From Crambe crambe (lineage: Eukaryota > Porifera > Demospongiae > Poecilosclerida > Crambeidae): 64,000 bases of DNA. This document shows, one piece after another, positions 9,233 to 63,475 of the stretch. Numbering within the stretch: position 1 is the stretch's first letter; each line of letters starts with the position of its first letter. The stretch is taken from assembly GCA_963924555.1 (NCBI GenBank), contig OZ004581.1:1798001-1862000 (forward strand). Direction: 5' to 3'. The notes under the pieces are model-generated. The model did no database searches. It worked only from the letters and a program-made list of their open reading frames with translations, and had not been told where the DNA came from. The translations under genes and the position numbers were made by a program.

Positions 9233-12200
9233 ATGGCTTCTGGTATCACTCCCCTCCACCTAACTAATGATGTGAACAAGGTCAGGGAATTACTGCAAAG
9301 TGGTGAGTACAGTGTAAACTGTTCTGACTCCAATGGGAGGACTCCACTGCATTATGCCTGTGCTAAAGGTCACTTGGATGTGGTGAAGGTGTTGATATCT
9401 GACTTCAATGCTGATATTCTTTTTAAGGATATTAATGGCTGCATACCACTAATGAATGCTGCTTTCAATGGGTGGGAGCATGTGGTGCTTGCTCTATTGA
9501 ACGAGTATCACTGTCCTTCAAATATCAGAAGTAAAGACAATAAAACATTGCTTCACTGGGCATGCAAAGGAGGTAATATTAGCTTAGTTACAACTCTGAT
9601 ACAAAACCACAATGGTGATATTAATGCTAGGGATGATAAAAATAACACCCCACTCCATGTGGCAGCATTGTGCGGGAAAAAAGAGGTTGCTTTGTTTTTA
9701 ATTAATGAGATGGGCTGTGACATAAATGTCAAAGGCGGTTTAGGTCAGTCTTTGTTACATTTGGCATGCAACGTTAGCCTAGTTCAAACTCTGATACAAG
9801 ATCACAATGCTGACATCAATGTTAGGGATGATCAAAATAACACACCACTCCATGTGGCAGCATTGGGTGCAAAAAAAGAGGTTGCACTGTTTTTACTTAA
9901 TGAAGTGGGCTGTGACATGATTGATAAAGGTGGTCTAGGTTGGTCTTTATTACATTTGGCATGTTATGGAGGTGATGTTAGCCTAGTTCGAACTCTGATA
10001 CAATACCACAAAGCCGATATCTATGCTAGGGATGATGAAAATAACACACCACTCCATGTTGCAGCATTAGGTGGGAATAAAGAGGTTTCTTTGTTTTTGA
10101 TTAATGAAATGGGCTGTGCCATAAATGTCAAAGGTCGTTTAGGTCGGTCTTTGTTACATTTAGCATGCAGTGGAGGTAATATTAGTCTTATTAAAACTCT
10201 TATACGAGACCACAAGGCTAATATCAATGTTAGGGATGATCAAAATAACACACCACTCCATGTGGCAGCATTGTGTAGGAAAAAAGAGGTTACATTGTTT
10301 TTAATTAATGAGATGGATAGTGATATTAATGTCACAGGTCGTATAGGTCGGTCTTTGTTACATTTAGCATGCAGTGGAGGTAATGTTAGTCTTGTTCAAA
10401 CTCTGATACAAGACCACAAGGCTAATATCAATGTTAGGGATGATCAAAATAACACACCACTCCATGTGGCAGCATTGTGTGGGAAAAAAGAAGTGACGTT
10501 GTTTTTAATTAATGAAATGGGTTGTGACATAAATATCAAAGGTGGTTTAGGTTGGTCTTTGTTATATTTGGCATGCTATGGAGGTAATATTAGCCTAATT
10601 CAAACTCTGATACAAGATCACAAGGCTGATATCAATGCTAGGGATAATCAAAATAACACACCACTCCACGTTGCAGCATTGTGTGGGAAAAAGGAGGCTG
10701 CATTATTTTTAATTAATGAAGTGGATTATGATGTTAATGTAAAAGGTTATCTAGGTCGGTCTTTGCTACATTTAGCATGCAGTGGAGGTAATGTTAACCT
10801 AGTTCAAACTCTGATACAAGACCACCAAGCTGATGTCAATGCTAGAGATGATGAAAATAACACACCTCTCCATGTGGCAGCATTGTGTGGGAAAAAAGAA
10901 GTTGTATTGTTTTTAATTCATGTCAATGAGGTGGGTAATGCAAAAGGTTACTTGGGTCGGTCTATATTACATTTAGCATGCAGTGGAGGTAATGTTAGCC
11001 TAGTTCAAACTCTAATACAAGACCACAAGGCTGATATAAATGCTAGGGATGATCAGAATAACACACCACTCCATGTGGCAGCATTGTGTGGTAAAAAAGA
11101 GACTACTTTGTTTTTAATCAATGAGATGGTCTGTGATATAAACATCAAAGGTGGTTTAGGTCGATCTTTGTTACATTTGGCCTGCAACGTTAGCCTAGCT
11201 CAATCTCTGATACGTGACCACAAGGTTGACATTAATGCTAGGGATGATCAAAATAACACACCACTCCACGTGGCAGCATTGAGTGGGAAAAAAGAGATTG
11301 CATTGTTTTTAATTAATGAAATGGGCTGTGACACAAATGTCAAAGGTGGTTTAGGTTGGTCTTTATTACATTTTGCATGTTATGGAGGTAACATTAGCCT
11401 AGTACAAACTTTGATACAATACTACAAAGCTGATATCAATGCTAGGGATGATCAAAATAACACACCACTCCATGTGGCAGCATTGAGTAGAAAAAAAGAG
11501 GTTTCATTGTTTTTAATCGATGAAATAGGCTGTGACATAAATATTAAAGGTCATTTAGGTCGATCTTTGTTACATTTTACATGCTATGGAGGTAATATTA
11601 GCCTAGTTCAAGCTCTGATACAAGACCACAAAGCTGATATCAATGCTAGGGATGATCGAAATAACACACCACTCCATATGGCAGCATTGTGTGGGAAAAA
11701 AGAGGTTGCACGGTTTTTAATTGATGAGGTGGGTTGTGACATGAATGTCAAAGGTCATATAAGTCGGTCTTTGCTACATTTAGCATGCAGTGGAGGTAAT
11801 GTTAGCCTAGTTCAAACTCTAATACAAGACCACAAGGCTGATATCAATGTTATGGATGATCAAAATAACACACCACTCCATGTTGCAGCATTGAGTGGAA
11901 AAAAAGAGGTTGCATTATTTTTAATTAATGAAATGGGCTGCGATATAAATGTCAAGGATATTTTAGGTCGGTCTTTGTTACATTTGGCATGCTATGGAGG
12001 TAATTTTAGCCTAATTCAAATTCTTATAAGAGACCATAAAGTTGAAACCAATGCTAGGGATGATGAAAATAACACACCACTCCATATGGCAGCATTGTGT
12101 GGGAAAAAAGAGGTTGCATTGTTTTTAATTAATGAAATGGGCTGTGACATAAATGTTAAAGGTTGTTTAGGTTGGTCTTTGTTACATTTAGCATGCAGTG

Positions 12201-15200
12201 GAGGTAATGTTAGCCTAGTTCAAACTCTGATACGAGATCACAAGGCTAATATCAATGTTAGGGATGATCAAAATAATACACCACTTCATGTGGCAGCATT
12301 GTGTGGGAAAAAAGAGGTTACATTGTTTTTAATTAATAAGGTGGGTTGTGACATTAATCTCAAAGGTCATATAGGTCAGTCTTTGCTACATTTAGCATGC
12401 AGTGGAGGTAATGTTAGCCTAGTTCAAACTCTAATACAAGACTACAAGGCTAATATCAATGCTAGGGATGATCGAAATAGAACATCACTCCATGTGGCAG
12501 CATTGTTTGGGAAAAAAGAGGTTGCATTGTTTTTAATTAATGAAATGGGCTGTGACATAAATGTCAAAGGTGGTTTAGGTTGGTCTTTGTTACATTTAGC
12601 ATGCTATGGAGGTAATATTAGACTAGTTCAAACTCTGATACAGTACCACAAGGCTGATGTCAATGCTACGGATGATCAAAATTACATGCCACTCCATGTG
12701 GCAGCATTGGGTGGAAAAAAGGCTGTTGCATTGTTTTTAATTAATGAAATGGGCTGTGACATAATTGACAAAGGTTTAGGTTGGTCTTTATTACACTTAG
12801 CATGTTATAGAGGTGATGTTAGCCTAGTCCAAACTTTGATACAGTACCACAAAGCTGATATCAATGCTAGGCATGATGAAAATGATACACCACTCCACGT
12901 AGCAGCATTAGGTGGAAATAAAGAGGTTGCATTGTTTTTAATTAATGAAATGAGCTGTGACATAAATGTCAAAGGTCGTTTAGGTTGGTCTTTGTTACAT
13001 TTTGCATGTTATGGAGGTGACATTAACCTAGTTCAAACTCTGATACGAGACCATAAGGCTGATATCAATGCTAGGGATGATCAAAATAACACACCACTCC
13101 ATGTGGCAGCATTGTGTGGGAAAAAAGATGTAGCATTGCTTTTAATTGATGAGGTGGATTTTGAAATTGATGTCAAAGGTTGTATACTAGGTCGGTCTTT
13201 GTTACATTTAGCATGCAGTGGAGGTAGCGTTAGCCTAGTTCAAACTCTAATACAAGACCACAAGGCTGATATCAATGTTATGGATGATCAAAATAACACA
13301 CCACTCCACATTGCAGCATTGAGTGGAAAAAAAGAGGTTGCATTATTTTTAATTAATGAAATAGGCTGCGATGTAAATGTCAAGGATAATTTAGGTTGGT
13401 CTTTGTTACATCTGGCATGCTATGGAGGTAATATTAGCCTAATTCAAATTCTTATAAGAGACCATAAGGCTGATATCAATGCTAGGGATGATGAAAATAA
13501 CACACCACTCCATATGGCAACATTGTGTGGGAAAAAAGAGGTTGCATTGTTTTTAATTCATGAAATGGGCTGTGACATAAATGTTAAAGGTTGTTTAGGT
13601 TGGTCTTTGTTACATTTAGCATGCAGTGGAGGTAATGTTGGCCTAGTTCAAACTCTGATACGAGACTACAAGGCTGATATCAATGCTAGGGATGATCAAA
13701 ATAACACACCATTCCATTTGGCAGCATTGTGTGGGAAAAAAGAGGTTGCATTGTTTTTAATTAATGAGGTGGGTCATGACATTAATATTAAAGGTTATTT
13801 AGGTCGGTCTTTGTTACATTTGGCATGCGATGGAGGTAATATTAGCCTAGTTCAAGCTTTAATACGAGACCACAATGTTGATATTAATGCTAGGGATGAA
13901 CAAAGTAACACACCGCTCCATGTGGCAGCAATATGTGGGAAAATAGAGGTTGCATTGTTCATAATTAATGAGGTGGGATGTGACATTAATGCCAGAGGTC
14001 ATTTGGGTTATACTATGCTTCATATGGCATGTTCAGATGGCAATGTTCAGCAAACTAATACTTTGATACGAGACTATAAGGCTGATATTAATGTTAGAGA
14101 TGATGATAATAATACCCCTCTTCATGTGGCAATTCGCTATCGGAATTTAGAAATCATGTCCATTTTAATCAATAATTATGACTGCTATTTCCATGACAGA
14201 GATCACAATGGCTACTCATTACTACACACAGTATGCAGCCATGATTACCATTCTCTAATAGAAAAGCTCAGTGACCACATATCACCTTTAGTAGTAGACG
14301 ATGATGGTAACACTCCCCTTCATATTTGTTCCTCACGTGGCCATACCAAATGTATAGAGGTATTACTGCAAAAAAATGCTCCAATTCTGATAAGAAATAA
14401 TTCAGGAAAGACTCCGATGGACTTAGCAAAAGGTGATGCTAAATTACTAATTAATGAGTACATGAAACAAAATCGAGATAAAACACTGGTTGACTATCAT
14501 GGCATGCAAGAGTGTGCAAAGAAGAAGTACTCAGGTGCTCAACATATAACCAGGTTATTTATAATTGGTAATCCTGGTGCAGGGAAGAGCTCCCTTGTCG
14601 AATCACTTAAAAGGGAAGGCTATTTCGAATCTTTTTGGAGGGTATCTGAATCTACTGTACCCCCTCACACTGCTGGTATAGTCCCTAGTATACATACCAG
14701 TAAACACTATGGGAGAGTCCAGTTCTATGACTTTGCTGGAGACCCTGAGTATTACTCCTCACATGCTGCTATACTGGAGAATCTTGCCTCATCAAGTAAG
14801 GGTGACAACATATTCATTATTGTGATTGATTTGACACAAGATAACTCAGCTATTGAGAATGTTTTGCACTATTGGTCTGCATTCATACAACACCAGAATT
14901 TTAAGAACAAGCCTTCCCTTATTGTAATAGGGAGCCACTCAGATCTAGTGAACAAAGAAAGTCTAGCCCAAAAAAGCAATTTTTTTGAAAAACTCTTTAG
15001 AAAATACTCAGTGACCACAAGACTGGGTCAAAACACTGCATACTTTCAGTTAGATTGCTGTAAACCAGGATCCAAAAAGATCAGTGAGGTCCAGGAGCAC
15101 CTTATTAGTTTAACAGGTAAGTCCCATTCCTATCGATTGTCTTTTGAAGCAAGCATTCTCTTAGGGCTATTGGAGAAAGATTTCAGCAATGTCACTGCTT

Positions 15201-35700: not shown

Positions 35701-38253
35701 CGGGAGTTATGGCTGTCAAGCGTCCACGAAGGCACTCGAACGGCAATTGACAGCTAGGACTTGAGCTTTACTTTAATTTGAACAAGACCATTCCTTAGAT
35801 CAGGTGTAGAGCTTCTAGTCCAGTCATTTTATGACAATTTTGGGGTCAACCCATAAGTAATTGCAACACGAGGTTTCTCAACTGTGTCCTATACAGAAAA
35901 ATGTGCTCTATAACATACTAAAAGTCTTAAGGAATCTTATGAGGGGAGAACACAGAAAATTGGTCACACGTTGACTAAAAATGCAATAATTGCTTAAATT
36001 TTAAGGGTAATATCAAAAAATGGTTTCTCAACTATTTCCTACACAGCAAAAATATGCACTATCACTCCTAAAGAATCTGTTGAGTAGTAACCTTATAAAT
36101 GGCCAAAAAATTAAAAATCGCTCTCTTAGAACTATGTATTAAGGTATCTGATCACAAGAATAGATCTAGATGAGCAATTAACACTCTTGTTACGAAATCT
36201 CAAGACAACCTGGAAGCTATGAATTGTGCAGTTATCTACCAGCTTTATTTAGTGGTCCACAATTTCTTCGGGACACATAAAAGCCTGTGCTAGCAAATGC
36301 AATCTGGTCTCTTTTGCCTCATTCCTGGATTATCTAGTGAGCTCCAGTATGTGTTGGATGGAGGAGCACTACTTCAGCGAATCCCATGGACCAAAGGAGC
36401 CACGTATAAGGAAATTTGCATAGTGTAGCTATACTGAGTATGTCACAAGGAAATATGGGAATGCAGTTGTTGTTTTTGATGGTTATCAATCCAAATCCAC
36501 CAAAGACATGACACATCAGAGACGAACCAAGGGGCAAATAGGAGCTACTGTTACCTTTACAGAAAGTATGCATCTTACCATGAGTAAGGCTCAGTTTCTT
36601 GCAAACAAGGATGACAAGCAACAGTTTATCAATTTGCTTAGTGCAAAGCTCATGGAAAAGAATTACAGGACTATCATGCTACAGGAGATGTTGATCTCCT
36701 AATAGTGCAGAAATCGGTGGAGTAAGCTATGAACACTGTATTGATTGGTGATGATACAGATTTGCTCGTTCTTCTAATTTACAATGCAAGTTTGGAATTT
36801 GGTAGCTTGTTTTTTAAACCTGAGCCAAAACAAAACACTAAGAATTTCCATATTTGGAATATACAGGCAGTCAAAGAACACCTGGGCCCTGAGGTTTGTA
36901 CTCATATCCTTTTCTACATGTGATTCTTGGATGTGATACAACATCCCAACTTTACAGCATTGGAAAAGGTAAATCTCTGAAGAAATATAGAGACTTCTGT
37001 AGTCACGCTGAAGTCTTTAACTTGCCATCAGCTTCTATTGAAGTAATTTCAGCTGCGGGGGAGCAAGTCTTGGTTACCATGCATAATGGGAGACCTGGGG
37101 AGTCTCTTGATTTCATACAGTATAAGAGCTTTTGTGAGAAAGTGGCCACCAGCAAATCGCATATTCAACCACAGACTTTACCACCAACATCAGCTGCAGT
37201 GAAGTTTCACAGCCTGCACGTTTACTACCAAATACTGCAATGTAAAGGAACAGGGGACAGATTTTTGCCTGAAGAATGGGGTTGGAGAGAGAGTGAAAAA
37301 AGACTTATCCCAATTATGACTGATTTAATGCCTGCTCCTGATGATCTTTTGCGCATCATCCGCTGTAACTGTCAAACAAATTGTAGTACTACGAGATGTG
37401 CATGCCATTAGATGCTCTATTGTGTGTGGAAATTGCAAAGGGTCTGGCTGTATGAACTCACCCCCAAATGAAGATGATAGTGGAAATTGCAAAGGGTCTG
37501 GCTGTATGAACTCACCCCCAAATGAAGATGATAGTGGAAATTGCAAAGGGTCTGGCTGTATGAACTCACCCCCAAATGAAGATGATAGTGACGACGATAA
37601 TACTGATGATGTTGTTGAGTAAATAGAATAACTAAAATGAACCAAGGATATGATGATAACTAACTTTTTCGCAGTGCATGATCCTATTTCTGTGTTTTCT
37701 CTTCAACAGTATGTTACAAAGTACATTTTTCTGTATAAGAAACTGTTGAGAAACCATTTGTTGCAATTATTGCCATTTTTGCATATTTTGATCAACATGT
37801 GACCCATTTTCTGTGGTTTCCCCTCATCAGATTCCTTAAGACTTTTAGTATGTTAGAGAGCACATTTTTCTGTGTATGAAACAGTTGAGAAACCATATGT
37901 TGCAATTACTTATGGGTCAAACTATAAATTGACTGGACTATTCAATATGGTACCAAGATTGTAGTTATAGGATGAAGCAGTCGGGAGTTATGGCTGTCAA
38001 GAAGAAGATTATTATCTTATTATTAATGAGCGTGGGCGTTTTGCGTGTCAAGCCTACATAGAGAGTGCTACCGCACTCTCTGATACACCAAGCATAGGAA
38101 TCAATATCAGCTCAATGTATTACCCTGACTAGCTACATAGCTATGTATAGTAGCAAATTGATTAAAAGTCTTACAGTAAAATATTGACTCCCCTAAACTA
38201 GTGCTTCTTACCTCAAATCTTCGTCTCTTTGAATTGAAGTTCTCATTCTCCAT
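26737..38253 (-). CDS. VLIG/GVIN-type interferon-inducible-like very large GTPase, ~2,199 aa
   Basis: One giant exon (33294-26737, 2,185 codons plus stop) preceded by an acceptor TGAATAG at 33295; an in-frame stop lies in the acceptor, so an upstream exon is required. The best candidate is 38253-38212, ATG plus 14 codons ending GAG|GTAAGA, phase 0. Domains: N-terminal VLIG motif LGKIGLDNKDYW and KYPVEKKALYKLL; a duplicated 26-residue segment (EEEKPVQDL, ~110-155); a second family motif LEKLGLCKHYP (~500); a proline/lysine run (~467); an acidic run (~587); the G domain with GLQSTGKST (~1132) and VVDTEGLRAPE (~1185); long coiled helical regions; and a C-terminal Cys/His cluster CPFCKEQC...HRPKCLGGYRW with HPYKDYQSIYPDWSI, as in vertebrate GVIN. 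Vertebrate VLIGs are also single-exon giants. Role in cell-autonomous defence is inferred from the family. Confidence 0.88.
33452..33572. mobile_element. Small MITE with TA-ended termini
   Basis: Starts TACCGTAAATCTGG and ends TATACGGTA; internal CTGTTAAAAATAATTCGCGG is shared with the copy at 33895-34026. TA at both borders suggests a Tc1/mariner-type TA target. Confidence 0.6.
33690..33890 (-). pseudogene. HIRAN-like domain gene fragment (broken)
   Basis: From ATG 33890 the frame reads MAVSASAEFQITCCVRGYHV, then MWDASLGETLECEGANE and a stop, and goes on in frame as DRYTVAVKKSGTIVG. The order RGYHVY / GE-L-C / DRY-VAV-K-GTIVG matches a HIRAN-like module seen in many invertebrate repetitive ORFs. 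The internal stop makes it non-functional. It lies between two copies of the same MITE, so it may be transposon cargo. Confidence 0.5.
33895..34026. mobile_element. Second copy of the TACCGTAAATC MITE (5' truncated)
   Basis: Shares TGTTGAAAATAATTCGCGGG with the first copy in the same orientation and ends GGAAATTTTCGC-complement then TTTACGGTA. The left terminus is lost. Confidence 0.6.
35034..35349. repeat. Long palindrome (fold-back element), ~140-bp arms
   Basis: The arms are nearly identical. From the outside they contain AAACATTTCTTCTAAATGAA, AGTGATGTAGGCTTGAG, AAAAGTACGGAAACAAGGTG and CCCTACAATTGACA; the loop is about 30 bp (35177-35206). Termini resemble the palindromes at 39092 and 60374. 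Confidence 0.8.
36436..37620 (+). pseudogene. Transposon-borne XPG/FEN1-like nuclease with Cys-rich tail (broken)
   Basis: Reading across three frame changes: VVVFDGYQSKSTKD and MTHQRRTKGQ (~36470-36530), GDVDLLIVQKS (~36690), GDDTDLLVLLIYNAS (~36745), LGCDTTSQLYSIGKGKSLKK (~36930), QTLPPTSAAVKFHSLHVYY, EEWGW, and a CXC-like tail CNCQTNCSTTRCACH (~37366-37410). Paired acidic motifs plus GCDTTS-IGKG resemble the metal site and helix-two-turn-helix of PIN/XPG-family nucleases such as FEN1; this is inference from motif order. The family recurs in repetitive DNA of many invertebrates. At least two frameshifts and a TAA near 36724 inactivate this copy. No other transposase was seen in the element. 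Confidence 0.6.
37427..37588 (+). repeat. Three perfect 54-bp tandem copies (Cys motif)
   Basis: Period exactly 54 bp (starts 37427, 37481, 37535); each encodes 18 residues, GNCKGSGCMNSPPNEDDS. It multiplies the last Cys pair of the CXC-like tail and keeps frame. Confidence 0.9.
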
Positions 38254-60299: not shown

Positions 60300-60373
60300 T
60301 TGACTGTGACTCTCACATGATTTGACTATCATCTATAATATTGTATGGCTTTGCCTCACCCACATTATAGCTA

Positions 60374-60893
60374 TAAGTGCAAAAAATTTCTTCTAAATAA
60401 AAAGTGAAGTAGGGATAGCCATAAAATTTAGCTGCATTCCTATCACTCCTACCCCTCCTAATTTCAATATCCATGCCCATATATATACCCAACTTACGTA
60501 AATCCCTACTCTTCACTCCCCCTTCAGCAATAAGTGAGTCAAGTAATCCCTTACCCATACCCATCACCAAACTCAAGAATCACAGCAATCATATTATTAC
60601 AAAACTACTACTCCTACTTCACTCCTAGGCCTCCTTAGGAGTGAAGTAGGAGTAGTAGTTTTGTAATAATATGATTGCTGTGATTCTTGAGTTTGGTGAT
60701 GGGTATGGGTAAGGGATTACTTGACTCACTTATTGCTGAAGGGGGAGTGAAGAGTAGGGATTTACGTAAGTTGGGTAGCTATATACATGGGCATGGATAT
60801 TGAAATTAGGAGGGGTAGGAGTGATAGGAATGCAGCTAAATTTTATGGCTATCCCTACTTCACTTTTTATTTAGAAGAAATTTTTTGCACTTA
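60374..60893. repeat. 520-bp near-perfect palindrome with coding-like arms
   Basis: Arms of ~255 bp meet at CCTAGGCCTCCTTAGG (60625-60640). Outer ends read AAGTGCAAAAAATTTCTTCT, like the palindromes at 35034 and 39092. Read outward from the centre, an arm stays open for ~85 codons (AEGGVKSRDLRKLGIYMG, RNAAKFYGYPYFTFYLEE); the left arm is intact and the right arm has a small indel at 60775. No family recognised. Confidence 0.8.
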
Positions 60894-61340
60894 CTTGTTT
60901 CCATTCTTTTTCTTTGTAATTAGCTATTATAAATTGATATTTAAAAATTTAAAAATATATTTTCTGAAATGTTTCTTAATTTGGTAAGTACATAGCACTG
61001 GATATGGAAGATTATTAACAATATTTGTGTATTATTCATATTCATAAGAAGTAGTTATTCCTTCATACCCTGCACCTATGGTTTGCAAATAGCTAATTAT
61101 ATGCATTCCCTTGCTAAGAAAAGCTGAATGATTAATTTTGAATGTTATATTCCTCAGGGATGATTGACTGATGAGGAGGTTTCAGAACGAGAAGGTGCAG
61201 TAGTGAAGAACCTGGAAGAAATGAATGGCTGGACACTTAGCTAATTAGCTATTGGTGTTTTTGTTTTGTTTTTTTTTTGTTGTTTTTTTTTTTCAATTAA
61301 TATGTGGGGGCATGTGCAATAAGGAGTGGTTGGGCAGTTT
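60894..61340. other. Spacer with possible short exon
   Basis: At 61167-61244 a plus-strand frame, LTDEEVSEREGAVVKNLEE, ends at TAA; an in-frame TGA lies just upstream. Poly-T runs at 61258-61294. No gene call made. Confidence 0.3.
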
Positions 61341-61389
61341 TTTTATTGAGAGTACCCTCTCATGCATGTGTGCTGAGGGTTTATTGTTT

Positions 61390-61660
61390 GCAAGCATAGG
61401 AGTGAAGAATGTTTTGTTGTCTTGAGGGAGGAGAGTATGACTGACATGAAGGAGGAGTATCTGTAGTGAATACAGTACTGAGGAGTGAAAACATTAGAGT
61501 GGAGGAGCAGAAGGAAATGAATCAATAATAGTTGTTGAGGTTTTGTTGTCTTGCATATGAGGGAGGAGGGTATGAGGGATGAGCATGTGGAGTGCAAATG
61601 AGTGTTGAGGTTTGGTTGTCTTGCACAAGGAAGGGTATGGGGAATGAGCAAATGAGAGTA
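61390..61660. repeat. Imperfect tandem repeat, ~100-bp unit
   Basis: Three copies of the block GTTTTGTTGTCTTG ... GGGAGGAGGGTATGA-like followed by AGTGTTGAGG. It lies downstream of the micro-exon gene on that gene's strand and may be in its 3' region. Confidence 0.5.
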
Positions 61661-61890
61661 GCAATTTGTGATGCGCATGCACATTTGATGTAGCAGGATT
61701 TTGTGCAGAAGCTTAGTATAGAGATCTGCTGTTTGTGTACATGATGATCGCGAGATATATATCTATAAAGCAATAGGGTTAAATGAAGCCAAGCTATAGC
61801 AGCTTTATGCTTGCCTTGAGTTAGAGAATTTCTGCAAGTATTGAGATACAAATGAAATGTTTTATAGTGTTTGAGTGCATGACTTACTTT

Positions 61891-62669
61891 TTATTTTTGA
61901 TGATAGTGGAAATGCACTGGAAAAGACAAGTAGCTATATATAGCTAAGTGATTTTGTAATGTTTTATATTACTTACAGTTTCCTCGATACATATTAGGGT
62001 CTGGAATTAAAGATTATGGTGATACATGTTATATAATGTGTTGGTGGAAAATGGTTAAGTATGTACTCACATGGGAACAGGCAGAATCGAACACCCCTCC
62101 CTCTGCGCCTGGCCCTAGCCCTAGCCCTCCACCCTGGGTGAGGGTGTGCAGATGGAAGTGGCACTGGATGAAGTAATTGCAAGATGCTATCTATAGTTAG
62201 TTGCTTACCTTCTGGGAGGGGGTGCGCAGCTGGAGGTGGCACTGGATGATGTAATCGTAAGATCATGAAATGTTTTATTTATAGTTGCTTACCTTCTGGG
62301 AGGCCGAGGGGGCGTGCAGTAGGTGGTACTGGATGACGTAATTGTAAGAGTAATGAAATGTGTTATCCATAGTTGCTTACCTTCTGGGAGGGGGTGCACA
62401 GCTGGAGGTGGCACTGGATATAAGAGTAATGAAATATGTTATCTATGTATAATTCTTTACCTTCTGGGAGGGGGCGCACAGCTGGAGGTGGCACTGGATG
62501 ATGTAATTGTATGAGTAATGAAATTGTTATCTTTAGTTACTTACCTTCTGGGAGGGAGTGTGCAAAGGGAGGTGGCACTGGATGATGTAATTGTAAGATC
62601 GTGATATGTGTTATGTATAGCTAGTTAGTTGCTTACCTTTTGGGAGGGGGTGTGCAGCTGGAGGTGGCA
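61891..62669 (-). CDS. Micro-exon gene for an 11-residue proline-rich repeat protein (5' incomplete)
   Basis: Nine candidate exons on the minus strand: 62669-62637, 62577-62545, 62493-62461, 62413-62381, 62328-62293, 62241-62209 (33,33,33,33,36,33 bp), then 62163-62071 (93), 62000-61977 (24) and 61916-61891 with a TAA. Every junction has AG before and GTAAG or GTGAG after, and every intron is phase 1. The first six exons each encode a variant of VPPPAAHPLPE, so the product carries it in tandem; the 93-bp exon starts with the same motif and goes on into an Arg-rich segment. Repeat introns are 45, 51, 52, 47, 51 and 59 bp, lengths not kept to multiples of three, while exon lengths are. The first exon was not found (upstream acceptors near 62730-62860 are unclear). 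No known family; a structural or linker role is only a guess. Confidence 0.55.
62164..62669 (-). repeat. Tandem intron-plus-exon units, ~80-92 bp, six copies
   Basis: Each unit carries CTTACCTTCTGGGAGGGGGT on the plus strand, i.e. the donor side of a micro-exon, and CTGGATGATGTAATTG, the acceptor side. One unit at 62293 has a 3-bp longer exon; one at 62413 has a shortened acceptor region. Confidence 0.85.
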
Positions 62670-63475
62670 CTGGTTGAGATCAGTGGAGTAGTTCCAAACT
62701 GAGTGCTACGTAGTCAGAGAAGAAACACTTATGAAAGAGTGAATATGGTTGACACTGAACACATTTTTTTGTACAAATAGCTGCAGAGCACTGGAATTGT
62801 AAGGAAACAGTTCCAAAGTTGCAAGCAGCTGATTATAAAATGAAAAGAAGCACTGGACTCAGGAGTCAAACAAAAGGAAAGAGTGAGTATAACATACCTT
62901 GTTGAACAAACAGCAGAAGACCTTGACCTTGTGTCTCAGAAGAGTGACTGTTACTTAATTTTTTGATTTAAAAGCAGCTGCACTTCAAAAGAAGCTAGCA
63001 CGTGCGCGCATTGCATACTACGTAATTGCAGCGAGCGAGCTGACTCTCAGGTCATGACTCATTGAAATTGTAAAATATATATATTTATTATGTAGTTACT
63101 GAGCATGTCCCATAGAGAATAGTAGTATCACAACTAGGGTGATATTTTACCATATCGCGTAGTCATATCGCGTAGTCATATTACGTCCCCCTGGGCAATC
63201 TTTGCATAATGATTTATTTTATAGCCATGATAATAAAAGTGAAAAACTAGACTATACTTCCTTTTCAAGAGTTTAAAAAATAATTATGCTGAACTCCTAG
63301 CAAAAAAAATCCAGTAGCTAACTAGAGATGCTCGTATAGCATTAGTTGGGCGAGCAAGCAGCCAGTGGTCATTTCAATGTGCTCCTCCCTCACTTATGAT
63401 TATATAGCCCCAACAGTGACTTTCAATATCTAGCTATTCAGGTTGTTAACTGACTTGGTGCATTCCCAGTTAGCA
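62670..63475. other. 5' region of the micro-exon gene and spacer
   Basis: Several acceptor-like CCAG|TG or TCAG|TG junctions (minus strand, near 62852, 62791 and 62755) may be decayed units or real upstream exons. A donor CAACAAG|GTATGT lies near 62897. No start codon could be fixed. Confidence 0.3.

Follow-up and report, generated by a model that had tools for sequence, protein, structure and literature searches.

The window analysed here, a stretch of 64,000 nucleotides from the sponge Crambe crambe, holds on its minus strand nine exon-like blocks, every one of which is directly preceded by CCAG. Six of them form a tandem array of micro-exons delimited by flanking AG and GT, at 62637..62669 (33 bp, VPPPAAHPLPK), 62545..62577 (33 bp, VPPPFAHSLPE), 62461..62493 (33 bp, VPPPAVRPLPE), 62381..62413 (33 bp, VPPPAVHPLPE), 62293..62328 (36 bp, VPPTARPLGLPE) and 62209..62241 (33 bp, VPPPAAHPLPE). 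The original prediction had described six such AG/33-36 bp/GT units at 62669-62209, and they were recovered at exactly these positions. The gaps 3' of the six units measure, in order, 59, 51, 47, 52, 51 and 45 bp, in line with the predicted short introns of 45-59 bp that do not vary in steps of three. The array is followed, also on the minus strand, by three terminal exons, whose dN/dS ratio is given below: 62071..62163 (93 bp), which holds a last repeat-like unit, an Arg-rich stretch and FCLFP, 61977..62000 (24 bp, YPNMYRGN) and 61891..61916 (26 bp, LHFHYHQK and the TAA stop), the tail peptides of the predicted protein being FCPFPYPNMYNGN and LHFHYH. These 93-, 24- and 26-bp exons do continue the phase as had been proposed, and joining the nine predicted exons gives a single open frame of 114 codons with a stop and no start codon. 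The donors of the first eight blocks are GTAAG (six), GTAAA (one) and GTGAG (one). Tandem Repeats Finder returned a period of 84 bp, 6.5 copies and a score of 503, which is far above chance.

The extent that the window copy has in common with other copies is approximately 60364..63026 (minus strand), and includes a 3' terminal palindrome at 60374..60898 (minus strand) that starts with ACAAGTAAGTGCAAAAAA and ends with TTTTTTGCACTT, and whose outer arms resemble palindromes downstream of PF14214 open reading frames. Other copies have a further 5' part, made up of the hairpin TCAGAGAGTGC...GCACTCTCT with roughly 440 bp behind it, which is absent here. Just upstream of the element, a Lys/Arg/Glu-rich, stop-broken segment at 63843-63500 (minus strand) resembles a fragment of a transposon protein, which it may be. 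Elsewhere in the window, positions 9560-14008 contain about 22 tandem copies of a 204-bp repeat; over the initial 1.6 kb one frame is open, and we take its translation (NTPLHVAAL...) to be ankyrin-like.

The locus is one of many. An 851-bp query against the species' own 143-Mb genome gave at least 72 matches, representing at least 40 distinct places with the window included, 26 of them at 86-100% and 14 at 77-82% identity. A second query, itself a member of the 77-82% set, revealed at least 16 more places with the element or part of it, so that the array family occupies at least 56 places in the genome. All 40 places of the first search and short pieces of five of the 16 added ones were examined at the sequence level. 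The main subfamily comprises 26 loci (L009-L026 and L041-L048), a count that includes L041 as a distinct third lineage, and subfamily 2 comprises 14 (L027-L040), of which L028 and L040 stand apart from the others. The number of units differs between copies of the element. Two copies, L010 and L011, are in the same state as the window copy, to which they are 99% and 96% identical, and this is what recent copying would produce. Contig C3 holds 19 of the at least 56 places, and many of the family's diverged or fragmentary places are among these 19.

Many copies begin at a short hairpin, TCAGAGAGTGCNNTAGCACTCTCT, and copies terminate in the palindrome ...TTTTTTGCACTT, followed by A, G or ACTTGT. 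The base before the hairpin is A in 26/28 of the hairpins upstream of arrays (tandem hairpins counted singly), which agrees with the 5' TC start and the insertion after A of Helitrons. Where both ends were seen (11 loci), the element spans 2.9-3.4 kb in nine cases and more in two. Genome-wide, the hairpin has 1,982 occurrences and the exact palindrome end 81, while PF14214 (Helitron_like_N) has 67 matches, 16 of them in open frames of more than 2,300 aa. We presume these long PF14214 frames to be Rep/Hel proteins with a predicted helicase portion. The 16 frames, of 2,300-2,500 aa, are stop-free within the match, which suggests recent Helitron activity.

Both PF14214 frames of more than 2,000 aa on C1 have tandem hairpins about 3.8 kb upstream; on the downstream side the exact palindrome end follows the domain match at a distance of 6.6-7.7 kb. 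Other hairpins likewise lie near C1 PF14214 frames, this proximity being judged from the first 100 of the 1,982 hairpin places, all on C1. Two further PF14214 frames, on C5 and C16, have a palindrome end about 6.6 kb downstream. The place L056 matches the 5' end of L013 at 90% identity over 482 bp, and a PF14214 match within an open frame of 2,428 aa lies 3.5-4.0 kb downstream of it. The outer arms of two 3' palindromes of PF14214 elements reach up to 88% identity over 76-78 bp, and 80-83% to some other copies. By sequence comparison the array-bearing units therefore have ends in common with an element that encodes a transposition protein, and the likeness at both ends leads us to regard the gene-bearing units as Helitron-like elements of about 3 kb that are non-autonomous. 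Membership of the Helitrons is incomplete, since the canonical 3' CTRR-T is absent; its place is taken by the palindrome, which ends in GCACTTA, GCACTTG or GCACTTACTTGT with varied bases next to it. Inspection of the flanks by eye revealed no target-site duplication.

The idea that the 3' palindrome is a MITE that inserted independently of the element was dropped because similar palindromes lie downstream of the PF14214 frames. End pairs some 235-255 bp apart occur away from arrays, so that short solo palindrome copies also exist and both readings may hold. A further hairpin end, TCAGAGAGTGCGGTAGCACTCTCT, is found in the window at 38083 (minus strand) and has only about 31-42 bp in common with the array-bearing elements, indicating an end common to elements with different interiors.

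The array units, mostly 80-95 bp long with introns mostly of 45-61 bp, are at the DNA level tandem short symmetric exon-plus-intron units of the micro-exon gene or SmPoMuc type. Their open frame was rejected as evidence for coding, because among the 33-bp units of 40 loci 215, 216 and 216 of 216 are open in the three frames, and the array of the window copy is likewise open in all three. The argument from exon length, central to the original prediction, also proved indecisive. In the window copy the lengths are indeed multiples of three, but across 40 loci, the window included, 33 of the 296 units scored are not; four of the 263 triplet lengths belong to the ATG exon, scored there from a spurious internal AG. 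One shared 52-bp unit, which breaks the frame and is present in 19 of the 26 main-subfamily loci, accounts for 19 of the 33 odd lengths, and the contrast between exon and intron lengths is thus no proof of selection. Other frame-breaking units are of 70, 37 and 19 bp, most distinct odd lengths being private to one to three loci as judged by eye. Units of 70 bp occur three times in L030 and once in L027; in L030 the insert carries an in-frame TAG (by eye), and the longer unit has been copied along.

Neither did substitutions single out the array exons. The codon-position test on the array gave no third-position excess, with 16, 25 and 24 changes at positions 1, 2 and 3. In the main subfamily the exons carry 0.154 and the introns 0.147 changes per site (22 aligned loci including L041; of 25 loci given, three were dropped for a missing anchor, and L048 was left out), which does not bear out the idea that the array exons are constrained relative to their introns. 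Among 116 distinct units, exon positions have about 2.0 changes per site as against about 7.8 for the next 20 intron positions, the intron figure being inflated by unaligned indels. Since the array-exon changes are alike at all codon positions, the older constraint seems to have acted on nucleotides no less than on amino acids.

The evidence for coding comes from the terminal exons and not from the array. Between L013 and L030 they give dN 0.17, dS 1.25 and dN/dS 0.13 in the predicted frame, compared with 1.55 and 1.38 in the other frames; the 16.3 non-synonymous differences (with 19.7 synonymous) fall short of the 25.7 expected from random placement, and 0 of 2,000 trials were as low (P <0.0005). 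For L013-L041 the ratio is 0.20, compared with 2.52 and 0.38 in the wrong frames, and random placement gave P 0.006. Both L041-L030 and L028-L041 have a dN/dS of 0.15 with values above 1 in the other frames, whereas the close pairs L028-L030, L009-L013 and L034-L030 have too few changes for a test. The sample amounts to about 47 codons and three or four lineages. Joining the terminal exons was possible in 28 of 40 loci (four of the remaining 12 have no acceptor, six miss an exon, and L040 and L048 miss a donor), and 27 of these keep the frame, L033 breaking it. Length changes of 6 bp in the Arg-rich stretch are partly due to its 6-bp repeats. The claimed selection on a spliced product thus stands for the history of the family, through the terminal-exon ratios of 0.13-0.20 between lineages, and is not supported for the window locus as a gene.

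A first exon with a start codon, TTCACC ATG CCA GT..., is present in 9 of the 14 subfamily-2 loci and in none of the 26 main-subfamily loci. In seven of the nine its 3' border, at GTAAGG, is of phase 1, so that the exon continues directly in the frame of the repeats; L032 and L036 have lost its donor. All nine loci have at least one odd-length unit or a lost splice site, in L032 the lost donor of the ATG exon itself, so that none of the copies seen was intact. For the main subfamily, scanning the region upstream of the array in L013 gave no start-exon candidate, and a MANRWS first exon noticed by eye at the 5' end of L013 was rejected because it is not kept in subfamily 2. In L028, L041 and L040 the array has different upstream DNA. 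Some of it is low-copy and has related stretches not only on C1 but also at a few places on C3, and one 170-bp part of it is repeated. L028 too terminates at the palindrome. These three loci may be remains of the gene that was captured by the element, or older elements.

The terminal exons also differ between lineages far more than the two introns that separate them. Sites that differ number 5/121 in the terminal introns and 35/143 in the exons for L013-L030 (P 1.9e-6), 1/121 and 16/143 for L013-L041 (P 0.0006), 6/121 and 37/143 for L041-L030, 4/121 and 36/143 for L028-L013, 5/121 and 39/143 for L041-L028 (P <1e-5 in these three), and 1/121 and 8/152 for L028-L030 (P 0.047); the pairs are not independent. 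Between subfamilies, dS in the terminal exons is 1.25-1.36 and nearly saturated, while the introns differ by about 4%. Beyond the stop codon the divergence is 9% (L013-L030) and 3.6% (L013-L041); it reaches about 20% in windows farther 3' (L013-L032), and about 15% separates L041 from L028 in their upstream DNA. The synonymous sites have therefore diverged at least about six times as far as the non-coding parts measured. Singletons have an equal frequency in exons and introns (54/3,279 and 55/2,935 bases in 23 distinct main copies, 22/2,471 and 14/1,993 in 17 subfamily-2 copies), which means that new mutations show no preference for exons. Farther downstream singletons are much commoner, partly because some copies end early, and were set aside. 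An MK-like table gave P 4e-5 and is indicative only, as it mixes the differences of one pair with the singletons of many copies.

The excess of exon over intron changes is confined to the terminal exons, orthologous array units of L009 and L041 differing at 11/195 exon and 13/432 intron sites (P 0.12). When the introns of the whole array were counted, the terminal exons significantly exceeded the introns in one of six inter-lineage pairs (L009-L041, P 5e-5; P 0.09-0.29 in the other five). This count aligns non-orthologous array introns between the subfamilies, and the terminal introns alone were used instead, a comparison that was chosen after the random-placement results were known. Several causes of the contrast are possible. 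There may be pressure on the mRNA sequence, for example through escape from small-RNA silencing; introns may be homogenised by exchange between lineages, the exons staying apart; or strong constraint on short introns may be combined with great age, although the moderately diverged flanks argue against this last combination. Homogenisation of introns with exons kept apart has been proposed for the schistosome mucins, and is mentioned for spider silk genes, in part of the text of PMC2576457. It is tempting to speculate on a transposon-borne gene whose mRNA, rather than its protein, is pressed to change, which would fit either a small-RNA arms race on spliced transcripts or fine-scale homogenisation of all but the exons; we regard this as tentative, and as rather doubtful.

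Our preferred interpretation, to which we give a probability of about 0.72, is that the array is part of a tandem symmetric phase-1 micro-exon gene that has been carried and multiplied by a non-autonomous Helitron-like element. Its dispersal, its PF14214-like ends, the variable number of units and the constraint on the terminal exons between lineages are established. Perhaps the element acquired the gene from a longer version of low copy number, such as that with other upstream DNA in L028, L041 and L040, and a presumed Rep/Hel protein supplied in trans would have copied the element. Live copies would be transcribed and spliced, with translation from the ATG of the first array exon as in subfamily 2, and the product would consist of an 11-residue repeat rich in Pro, then an Arg-rich stretch, then a short tail of aromatic residues and His. 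Owing to the symmetry of the units, the frame survives when a whole exon and intron are gained or lost, and the repeat number can drift freely. The window copy, which lacks the 5' end, is probably a truncated leftover and a non-functional passenger.

The main alternative is a non-coding minisatellite that hitchhikes in a transposable element and whose splice-like borders and open frame are accidental. The array itself gives it some room, through units open in all three frames, equal rates of change in main-subfamily exons and introns, and the frame-breaking units of 52, 70, 37 and 19 bp. It is nevertheless unlikely: exons of the same predicted transcript, two of them non-repeat, have diverged chiefly through changes that are synonymous in the predicted frame, and the excess of terminal-exon changes stops, by eye, near the predicted splice sites. 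That the C-rich units serve as DNA or RNA motifs, either binding sites for a transposition protein or splicing enhancers, with the protein tail a separate and older feature, is in our view very unlikely. The lower rate in array exons than in introns among the 116 units would suit such motifs, and so would several third codon positions of Pro that never changed, beyond what protein coding alone needs; set against this, the array exons of the main subfamily are no more conserved than the introns, and the PF14214 element places are absent among the array matches listed.

Least probable of all is a host gene at the window locus, presently selected for a spliced 11-residue repeat protein, as the original prediction would have it. 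The window copy does keep all predicted splice sites and the nine-exon open frame, and it has no 52-bp unit. However, the locus is one of at least 56 dispersed places, its 5' end and ATG exon are absent, and L010 and L011 share this state at the high identities that recent copying would leave. If the carried-gene interpretation is correct, a mobile gene with 33-bp exons and introns of about 50 bp would offer a natural test bed for small-exon definition, and would show how repeat proteins gain and lose units with the frame intact.

Pfam gave no family for the product at E up to 1, and a single weak match to the PDB chain 6cvj_D (tau; E 0.0057) was judged to be compositional. Rfam at E up to 1 gave 10 matches of the miRNA type, all under the gathering scores, ARAGORN detected no tRNA in three loci, and one 42-base unit pattern had no match in viral contigs. 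In the literature, searched at the level of titles and abstract openings, no Helitron-borne micro-exon array was found.

Maize Helitrons have reportedly captured host genes, and in snake venom genes particular exons are said to diverge much faster than the rest. Compared with captured-gene Helitrons, the present element carries a multi-exon micro-exon-array gene with constraint between lineages, and it has a 3' palindrome of some 235-525 bp and no CTRR-T. The bat Helitron Helraiser, according to part of its description (PMC4778049), resembles it in having moved host sequence including spliced exons and in its 5' TC start. Conotoxin genes also have particular exons that diverge much faster than the rest, but the sections of PMC3862624 drawn on here report positively selected sites, whereas our dN/dS is 0.13-0.20 with nearly saturated synonymous sites. 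Schistosome micro-exon genes (MEG), as presented in parts of PMC10526429, share the regular alternation of short exons and introns; their introns are long, up to 5 kbp, and their products secreted, whereas the ATG exon found here is by eye unlike a signal peptide. A similar architecture is that of the Schistosoma mansoni SmPoMuc genes, which in the portions of PMC2576457 concerned consist of tandem units of a tiny exon with introns, variable in number, the tiny exon being 27 bp, a multiple of three, and the intronic parts highly alike while exon differences persist. The comparison is one of architecture. The SmPoMuc units are of about 1 kb in clustered genes (same partial source), whereas those in C. 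crambe are mostly of 80-95 bp and the gene is dispersed by a Helitron-like element.
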